Shown piece after piece: positions 529-3,500 of a stretch of DNA of 10,032 bases; positions within the stretch are counted from its first letter, which is position 1, and every line of letters begins with the position of its first letter. Made by a program: the position numbers and the translations under genes. Below the pieces are notes generated by a model, which was given only the letters and a program-made list of their open reading frames with translations, was not told the origin of the DNA and ran no database searches. Location: the NCBI GenBank assembly GCA_947303825.1, contig CAMYZK010000062.1:1-10032 (forward strand), in the 5' to 3' direction. The DNA is from an uncultured Prevotella sp. (GTDB lineage Bacteria > Bacteroidota > Bacteroidia > Bacteroidales > Bacteroidaceae).

Positions 529-3500
529 TTACTCTTTATTTTGTTTTGTTGATTTCCACTGTATTATGAATCCATAGTGGTAGGGCTGGTTGCCGTCGAT
601 GGTATACTGTGGCAGTGTGCGCTGGCCCCAGGTGTCGATGCCGCCAACACCGTGTACGTTGAGGTCGATGTTGAGGTTGACAAAGCGTCCGCACTGGATG
701 TCTTGGGGATGCTTGGCGGGCTCTAAGTCTTCCTCACCATATTCCCAGGCACGGATGCATAGTGGCTGAAGCCCATTGATGGTGAGGGTGCGCTTGTTGT
801 TGGTGATATTAAACCAGCGCACATCCGTACGGCAACCGTTATCCTGAGGATGGATATACTCGGTCTCAAACTCAGAGAGCGGCATCTTGTACTGTCCCAG
901 GAACGCACTGCGCTTACGGTCGGGATAGTTCTCCCAGGGTCCACGGCCATAGTATTCGATATTGGTATAGTCGCTTTTCAGTCGCATGCGCATGCCGAAC
1001 TTGGGTATGAGCGGTATGTCTTTTTGTAGAGGCTGATAGTTGGCGCCAACCATTATTCTTCCTTCATTGGTTATGGTGTAGGTGAGGGTGTAGTCGGCTC
1101 CCACGGGTAGTGACATCTCGTATGTCAGGACTATGCAGTCGTTCTTCTCCTCGGTACGGATGGCCTTGACTTTTCTCTGGGCTGCGGCATCGCGCCATGC
1201 TGCAAGGCGACGGGCAAAGCCGGCAGCGTGCTGGTTGTCGTTCTCCGGTTTCCAGAAGTAAGGCTCCAGCGGGGCTTCCAGCATCTGCTCTCCGTTGACC
1301 ACAAGGCCGCTGAGTGCTCCCTGCGGGTTGAAATGGAGGATGGCATCGCGGGTGGTGACAGCGATGTAGTCTTCATCGTTGCGCATCAAGAAGGCAGGCT
1401 TGCCGCTAATGCCGTTGGGGAAGATGTAGTCTCTAAGTATGAACTGCTCGCGTGCTACAGCGTATCCCTTTGCTGCCCAGGGCTTGTCTTCCTTCAGGCG
1501 TGCCTCGATGGTCATGGTCACCTCGTTGTCGTCAGGATAATAGGGTAACTCAATACGGTCGCCCTTGAGTTCCAGTAGTCCGCCGCCGGCAACCTCGCCA
1601 TTGCGTGATAGCGTGTAGTAATACTCGTACTCGTCGAGGGGGGTGAACTGGTCGCGGTTGGTGAGTAGTAAGGTATTACCTTCACGGGCAAAAGAGATGG
1701 GCTGGTAGACGTGCTGCACCTCGTAGTAGTGAGGATGGGGGGTGCGGTCGGGGGCAATGAGTCCGTTGATGCAGAAGGCTCCGTCGTTGGGCTTGTCGCC
1801 GAAGTCGCCCCCGTATAGAAAAGCCTCACCCCCGCCCCCTCTCCGATGGGAGAGGGGAGTGGTTACCTTTGCTGCAGCCTCTTCGCCTTGAGAGTATTTA
1901 CTCCCCTCTCCAGTCGGAGAGGGGTTGGGGGTGAGGCTGCTTATCCCCTGGTCCACCCAGTCCCAGATGGCTGCGCCACAGATGCTGCTGTCGGCATAGA
2001 TCACATCCCAGTATTCCTGGAAGTTGCCCATGGAGTTGCCCATGGCATGAGCATATTCACGCATCATGAAGGGACGGTCGGTGACCTTCTTAGCCCCTTC
2101 ACGCAGACGGTCGGGCGACAGATAGCCGTCGTCGTAGATGTCTGAGTAACGGCGGTCGGTATCACAGAAGGGTAGGGCGATGGCATCGAGGGCTACGACG
2201 GCCTCGCGCATCGCCTTCATGTTGGGGCCTACGCCACCCTCGTTGCCCAGGCTCCAGAAGATGACGCTGGGGTGGTTCTTGTCGCGCTGCACAAGACTGA
2301 CGGCACGATCCACATGGGCGTCCTTCCATTCAGGGTCTTCGCCCATCACCTTGTTAGCATAGCCGTAGCCGTGACTCTCCTGGTTGGCCTCGTCCATCAC
2401 ATAGATGCCCCAGCGGTCGCAGAGCTCGTAGAGGTATTCGCGGTCGGGATAGTGCGAGGTGCGCAGGAAGTTGATGTTGGCCTGCTTCATCAGCGCGATG
2501 TCCTTCTCGTAGGTGGCATCGTCGACATAGCGACCCGTCACGGGATGGTGGTCGTGACGGTTAACGCCACGCAGCTTCACGTTCTTACCGTTAATCTTGA
2601 AGACCTCGCCCACACACTCCACACGTTTCACGCCGAAGTGATAGTCGAAGTGCTCTACAACATTGCCATTCTTGTCGATGAGTTCCACGCTATAAGGATA
2701 GAGATGAGGCTTCTCTGCCGACCAAAGACGAATGGGGGTGATAGTGGCAGAAAGCGAAACGGTGGTAGTGTCGCCAGGAGCAAGGGTCGCCACCTTGTTA
2801 AAGCTCGCAATAGTGGTAGCCCTTCCTCCTATTACGAGGCGGGCCGTGTAGCTTTTTACCTTTTTCTTACCTGTATTGCAGAGTTTGATATTGGCAGTGA
2901 CCTCAGCATTTGAATAGTCGGCACTTGGCACGGCCTCCACCTTATAGTCGGCAATATGCACCAGCGGTCTTATCCATAGCTGCACAGGGCGGAAGATGCC
3001 TGAGAGTCGCCACATGTCCTGACATTCCAGGTAGCTGCCGTCGCTCCAGCGATAGACCTCCACGGCAAGTTTGTTCTTGCCCTCGCGTATATAATTAGTT
3101 ATGTCGAACTCTGCGGGCGACATCGAGTTCTGGCTGTAGCCCACCTTCTTGCCATTCACCCATACGTAGAAGGCAGAATGGACACCGCCAAAGTGCAGGA
3201 TGAGGTTCTTCGAGAGCATCTCTTGGGTGATATTGACGAAGGTCACATACGAGCCGACAGGATTGCGGTGGTCATAGGCATACCAGTCTTTGTTGGGCTC
3301 GCCCATCACGTTGGGGCGGTCGCGATGGAACGGATATTGCATATTGACATAGATGGGTTTGCCGAATCCCTGCAACTGCCAGCAGCCAGGCACCTTTATC
3401 TTGTCCCACTGGCTCACATCGAAGTCCTCAAGATAGAAGTCGGCAGGGCGTGAGTCGGGGTCTTTCGACCAATGGAAGAGCCACTGACCGTCAAGAGACA

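Follow-up and report, generated by a model that had tools for sequence, protein, structure and literature searches.

The window, by which we mean the whole stretch of 10,032 nucleotides that was analyzed, is the entire contig C62 of a draft Prevotella genome (G000; 2.63 Mb, 385 contigs, 70.7% complete). Positions 529..3663 of its minus strand carry lacZ, which codes for a GH2 beta-galactosidase of 1044 amino acids and was identified from its open frame, Pfam domains and Foldseek matches. The Pfam families GH2_N, GH2, GH2_C, LacZ_4 and Bgal_small_N were all found in the product.

A palindromic pair within the lacZ reading frame

A paired palindromic element is present in frame within lacZ, at positions 1822..1938 of the minus strand. 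It consists of 117 bp, or 39 codons, and since the lacZ frame is open through it the insert corresponds to LacZ residues 576-614. In the orientation of the gene, the first arm (1900..1938, recognized by the inverted repeat and the family consensus) is followed by a spacer (1861..1899) and by the second arm, which lies in inverse orientation (1822..1860, recognized by the inverted repeat). All three parts are on the minus strand, measure 39 nt and code for 13 residues each. A repeat search and the pairing of the 117-nt unit showed that the arms, located 39 nt apart, are 90% complementary (35/39 pairs). The initial annotation had described an in-frame repeat inside lacZ, built as a REP-like palindromic pair with conserved LacZ sequence on both flanks, and this description was confirmed. 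The exact geometry that it gave (1823-1937, arms of 38 nt, 34/38 identities) is replaced by the values reported here.

A strong hairpin in the mRNA had also been considered possible, and it is predicted by folding: the coding-strand RNA of window positions 1815-1945 has an energy of -84.7 kcal/mol, while 200 shuffled sequences gave -46.2 +/- 4.3 kcal/mol (z -8.9). A scan of the whole window against Rfam found no known RNA family.

The AlphaFold2 model of the protein (pTM 0.86) is otherwise a mostly confident LacZ fold, and its best Foldseek match is the T. maritima LacZ (6sd0, TM 0.87 by query length). This model was obtained with an alignment that included more distant sequences; closely related homologues alone produced a poor pTM of 0.46 and that model was set aside. 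The longest low-confidence stretch, residues 578-611, is the insert, with pLDDT values of about 30-35, and the model is therefore consistent with the flexible loop proposed in the initial annotation. The loop site is flanked by the counterparts of two E. coli LacZ residues, W568 and F601, that are located at the active site. We infer that the insert is translated and that the enzyme is active. An insert is found at this very site in another LacZ protein, P0002, whose gene lies on other contigs; 34 of 43 residues are identical including the flanks (76% identity over the whole protein), and neither this gene nor the lacZ in the window has a stop codon or a frameshift at the insert.

Other sequences in the window were recorded. 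A second inverted repeat, AT-rich, is located in frame in a truncated menC (1-456, minus strand), with arms at 28-69 and 97-137. It codes for approximately KSKVQSVERAT...SKLYILNSTLF, and its local alignment score was 17, while none of 500 shuffles scored above 13. A nadC-like frame has an in-frame TGA at 6041-6043, 28 codons after the likely start (MLSTEELVDRLIDLSFAEDIGDGDHTTL, the stop, and then CIPEDAMGK), and consequently the listed ORF 6062-6805 starts late. Inverted arms of 30 nt of the ACAGATTACACAGA type, 90% complementary, at 8653-8682 and 8911-8940 frame an intergenic stretch of 228 bp. Short AT-rich near-tandem repeats (AAGAGTTAAGAGTT, TAATTCGTAATTTGTAATT) are found between genes at 5281-5310 and 5884-5945, and resemble in style the AT-rich lacZ-loop element described below.

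Genomic distribution and reading frame of the repeat family

The genome that includes the window has a second full copy of the element, with a related spacer, in a FAD-oxidase/Fe-S gene (contig C3), and arms in GH127 and GH43 genes. All of these are in frame and share the reading xxTPxPSP. One more arm fell outside the in-frame rule defined below (L016), a partial match lies near the end of contig C113, and core-palindrome matches with two mismatches were found on contigs C20, C41 and C134. Spacers related to that of lacZ are also present in copies of genomes G032 and G034. The arm pattern was detected in 21 of 60 relatives, counting the genome of the window itself, and in 3 of 25 genera, with no match of the reversed-pattern control. 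When the inner extension was included, 112 of the 299 genomes sampled from the genus showed the pattern, and the reversed control was zero in every genome. Neither a GTAG nor a CGTC end tag is conserved in the arm consensus, AGCCTCACCCCC..CCCCTCTCC....GG.GAGGGGagt..ttac, which was derived from 34 sense arms inside genes. The highest copy numbers belong to G003 (74 matches) and G026 (89 matches), again with a reversed control of 0. Arms are densely clustered in these two genomes (L285 is an example), with a recurrent step of 207 bp between opposed arms in G003, and the G026 stretches match G003 as mosaics.

The initial annotation had suggested counting the copies inside and between open reading frames. 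Arms were scored in 120 stretches around arms and in five stretches of G000, and a coding frame through the arm, defined as an open frame together with a codon score trained on the long frames of 80 lacZ loci, was required. The thresholds were loosened once, after the C-terminal cases described below had been seen, which took the result from 42 of 150 elements under the strict setting to 72 of 200 arms (46 sense and 26 antisense). One frame, SLTPxPSPxGEGS, is used by 43 of the 46 sense arms, and one frame by 21 of the 26 antisense arms. The in-frame arms predominate in G000 (6/7), G022 (8/8), G023 (10/17), G032 (12/16), G034 (19/25) and G027 (6/11), and are the minority or absent in G011 (3/13), in the stretches taken from G028 (2/27) and G026 (0/36) and in G016 (0/26); seven other genomes included in the count have at most four arms each. 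The classified copies of G026 and G028 come from 20 stretches per genome (total matches 89 and 35, respectively), with none from G003, and the two species groups compared in a Fisher test were selected after the data had been seen. The differences among genomes indicate that, depending on the species, the family behaves as a classical intergenic REP or is mainly found within genes.

Thirteen in-gene pairs span 105-162 nt, nine of them being 117 nt, and all have a length that is a multiple of three and no stop codon in the frame observed. Of the two alternative sense frames, one is open in 2/13 and the other in 0/13, so that stop codons account for the frame bias of these pairs. Longer pairs also exist, and reach 243 nt where the arms are separated by host sequence. 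When a fixed rule was applied, the length was a multiple of three in 13 of 17 in-frame pairs versus 8 of 19 other pairs; the four remaining in-frame pairs, measured from arm end to arm end, are outside the set of 13, and three of the 19 other pairs were read as in-gene on inspection. The copies at L192, L194 and L236 and one carA copy (L229) were ruled unclear but are in-gene on inspection, L194 in another frame. The single arms seen within genes are probably what is left of pairs after decay or partial deletion. The same frame is used by 24 of 25 of them, though another sense frame was open in 91 of the 99 arms tested, which means that the bias of single arms is explained by stop codons only in part. 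As the cases in CarAB, in GltB and in C-terminal linkers are partly shared by descent or duplication, these counts are not all independent.

The nine 117-nt copies, which come from several genes, were compared with their consensus. The differences are spread over the three codon positions as 45, 50 and 47, and the changed codons comprise 82 non-synonymous and 25 synonymous cases. Mismatches number 31 and 28 in the two arms but 83 in the spacer (39 nt each), and the arms are thus the better conserved parts. The even distribution over codon positions and the preponderance of non-synonymous changes point to filler derived from a tolerated DNA element instead of a selected peptide. We conclude that a selfish non-autonomous palindromic repeat, formed by two REP-like arms and a spacer, very probably entered lacZ, and that such repeats are tolerated in loops and linkers. 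Copies would enter genes at many places, and purging would remove any that cause a frameshift, introduce a stop codon or fall in structured parts of the protein. The survivors would mostly have lengths that are multiples of three, stay in an open frame, be located in loops and interdomain linkers, and be read by ribosomes as a disordered insert.

The element had been described as domesticated in the initial annotation, which would mean that LacZ benefits from the insert, for example through a flexible lid or an exposed linker, and that selection on the amino acids maintains it. The insert in P0002, free of stop codons and frameshifts and about as divergent as the rest of the protein (34/43 versus 76%), agrees with such a role. 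However, the nine copies show no codon-level constraint, the same lacZ loop holds other types of repeat in other species, and the host genes have no common function. Domestication is for these reasons unlikely. A second possibility is that the palindrome is transcribed and then skipped by the ribosomes, as happens with the byp elements of yeast mitochondria. The very stable hairpin predicted in the mRNA would suit this mechanism, and one report describes such a case in Magnusiomyces mitochondria (PMC6649704). Nevertheless, bypassing needs neither a length that is a multiple of three nor an open frame, and it is very unlikely in view of the lengths of the in-frame pairs (13/17) and of the single frame used by the sense arms (43/46). 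The in-frame set is open through the arm by rule, and thus it is the choice of one frame, not the openness, that counts as independent evidence.

Regarding the mobilization of the repeat, the initial annotation had suggested looking for a RAYT-type transposase elsewhere in the genome of the window. A search for PF01797, the Y1 transposase family, which includes the RAYTs, found none in this genome, which is 71% complete. PF01797 was not found either in G003 and G026, the genomes with most arm matches (both 99% complete), or in G032; the three genomes are 97-99% complete. The arm and a PF01797 match occur together in G016, G028 and G034, while G004 and G010 have a PF01797 match without the arm. 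A RAYT as the mobilizing enzyme is thus not supported, though the family is present in some carriers. The comparisons at the DNA level (carA of G034 with that of G032, and G026 with G003) revealed neither a clean empty site nor a duplication of the target such as a MITE would leave. In the carA case the arm of G034 faces a stretch of similar length in G032, and therefore no target duplication can be read.

The lacZ loop and other host sites

The segment between WDWVDQG and YGGDFGD was compared in 120 listed LacZ proteins out of 7,998 found, and the loops were assigned to classes by regular expressions that we wrote. The loop has at most 14 residues in 64 of the 120 proteins, while 11 have the GC-rich repeat found in the window and 29 have one of two other repeat types: 15 an AT-rich type, which reads EELRxKxEE...SSLFTLHSSF, and 14 an IDN/IEN/FDN type. 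The remaining loops belong to a MEEGRGK type (11, grouped by protein pattern alone) or to something else (5). The nearest named lacZ loci belong to Prevotella, Prevotellaceae and other Bacteroidales, many of them from rumen. At the DNA level the loop was readable at 103 of 106 lacZ loci (89 distinct loops), and its length is a multiple of three in 102. In the exception, L098 of G028, the insert is related and GC-rich but measures 91 nt, which breaks the frame; this lacZ is split into frames of 619 and 445 residues, and a run of eight G is found within the insert. A significant inverted repeat was detected in 14 of 55 loops of at least 60 nt, with up to 36/36 positions paired (L140), and the loops with inverted repeats are of the GC-rich, AT-rich and IDN/IEN/FDN types. 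In G083, a search of the genome with its AT-rich element gave 113 matches, counting both strands and overlapping pieces. The lacZ loop is a hotspot used by unrelated repeat types, a point absent from the initial annotation, as is the presence of the element in other core genes.

The statement in the initial annotation that homologues have about ten residues at this place holds for the bare majority with loops of 14 residues or fewer, and fails for a separate class with loops of 25-28 residues (for example, IAKPIDGSPLRPSSSLSLQPDEFWA) that have no significant inverted repeat. Repeat-free loops of 75 and 84 nt make up 31 of the 89 distinct loops and belong mostly to more distant homologues. Since many long loops have no repeat, the loop varies for other reasons too. 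The existence of this class could suggest that a long loop is ancestral and was lost in the homologues instead of being inserted in the lacZ of the window. This explanation is very unlikely because the inserted DNA belongs to a dispersed repeat that occurs elsewhere in this genome as well, and the long loops of the other class are unrelated to it in sequence and are devoid of a significant inverted repeat.

Pfam analysis of 24 arm-bearing ORFs identified MiaB, GH127, GH43, FAD-oxidase, PGM, a TonB receptor, an outer-membrane barrel, a histidine kinase, AsnB, glutamate synthase (GltB), CarA/CarB, DUF2264, a CoA ligase, an M56 peptidase, DegT, DnaG, FecR and others; L308 had no match and L202 none above the cut-off. 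The domain match spans the insert in MiaB, GH127, AsnB, PGM, DUF2264 and GltB (L249). A loop of MiaB, between LGQNVNSY and LLRLVA, was readable at 29 of 30 loci, with a length that is a multiple of three in all 29. Inserts with inverted repeats are present in L309 (37/40), L310 (31/32) and L317 (33/34), and short loops occur in others. The carA-carB junction was also readable at 29 of 30 loci, and 20 of them have separate genes with a stop codon between them. In G032, G083, G034 and, in a decayed form, G028, where CarA and CarB are fused, the element makes up the in-frame linker between them, while five more fused loci (L373-L376 and L386) are joined by other linkers. The inverted-repeat matches in the linkers of L369-L372 are 46/48, 41/46, 35/40 and none, which makes a decay series of the element possible. 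Eight in-frame arms are located just before a short C-terminal domain, and the ends shown finish in GLYIVNGKKVVIK or similar sequences. The linker of dnaG carries the element in L237, P0121, P0129 and P0230, among the 11 of 120 homologues that the motif used was able to read; P0121, in which the insert was read, represents a cluster of 52 sequences. The draft metagenome genome is 71% complete and split into 385 contigs, one of which makes up the whole window, and this might suggest that the element is an artefact of assembly. Such an artefact is very unlikely given the same-site insert on other contigs in P0002, the arm pattern in 112 of 299 genomes, the lacZ inserts of GC-rich and other types in many assemblies and the dnaG insert in the P0121 cluster representative.

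Relation to known palindromic elements and significance

Protein-coding palindromes are best known from Rickettsia, and the likeness of the repeat in lacZ to the Rickettsia palindromic elements (RPEs), already pointed out in the initial annotation, is supported by the in-frame copies in unrelated genes. The Rickettsia and Wolbachia elements are also palindromic repeats of about 100-150 bp inserted in frame within unrelated protein genes. According to two reports, RPEs are found in frame in unrelated genes at solvent-exposed parts of the proteins, and different RPE families are sometimes found near one site of a gene (PMC10969869, PMC3767692). Unlike the RPEs, the Prevotella element belongs to another phylum, with the nearest named lacZ loci in Bacteroidales and not in Rickettsiales, its family is intergenic in sister species, and it is built as an opposed pair of REP-type arms. 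With the RPEs compared by their description, the Prevotella element would be a separate family.

As with REPs, the palindromic unit is short, it has many copies per genome, and singles and dimers are found inside genes. PMC3733652 describes GTAG/CGTC REPs within genes, as singles and dimers, in Opitutus terrae, Thauera and R. conorii. Dimers or groups of these in-gene REPs encode 20-30 residues, the hosts include replication and repair genes, and CGTC repeats are reported in Bacteroidetes; the word Prevotella is absent from its main text. In contrast to the GTAG/CGTC REPs, the Prevotella consensus is without the conserved tag and the copy-richest genomes are without a Y1 transposase. Furthermore, instead of being simply extragenic the location depends on the species (8/8 in frame in G022, 0/26 in G016). 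The byp elements are also palindromic elements that interrupt protein genes (PMC6649704), but the ribosome skips them, while the Prevotella element keeps one reading frame in the protein deduced from the DNA.

The RPE and in-gene REP precedents mean that this kind of element was already known. A literature search, which left subscription journals mostly outside, had no paper on coding palindromes in Prevotella or on the string SPTGEG among the matches listed. As far as these lists show, what is new is the family, the genus, the split between species with in-gene and intergenic copies, and one enzyme loop shared by unrelated repeats.

At slightly below an even chance, we propose the broader idea that several unrelated palindromic families independently and repeatedly enter the same few permissive sites, and that much of the sequence in the loops and linkers of the genus derives from their decay, which would make repeat DNA a main source of new protein segments. 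The sites named for repeated entry are the lacZ and miaB loops, the dnaG linker, the linker of the fused CarA-CarB and the linker before the C-terminal domain of secreted-type proteins. A large gut and rumen genus shows a Rickettsia-like habit in its core enzymes, while sister species keep the family between genes. Three questions become testable: at what rate new protein segments arise from repeat DNA, where a fold tolerates 13-60 foreign residues, and whether gene fusions such as CarA-CarB form with the help of these inserts. For LacZ, MiaB, DnaG and carbamoyl-phosphate synthase, the inserts are also natural data on linkers and permissive sites. In this genus, selfish DNA may repeatedly give rise to new loops and linkers in proteins.
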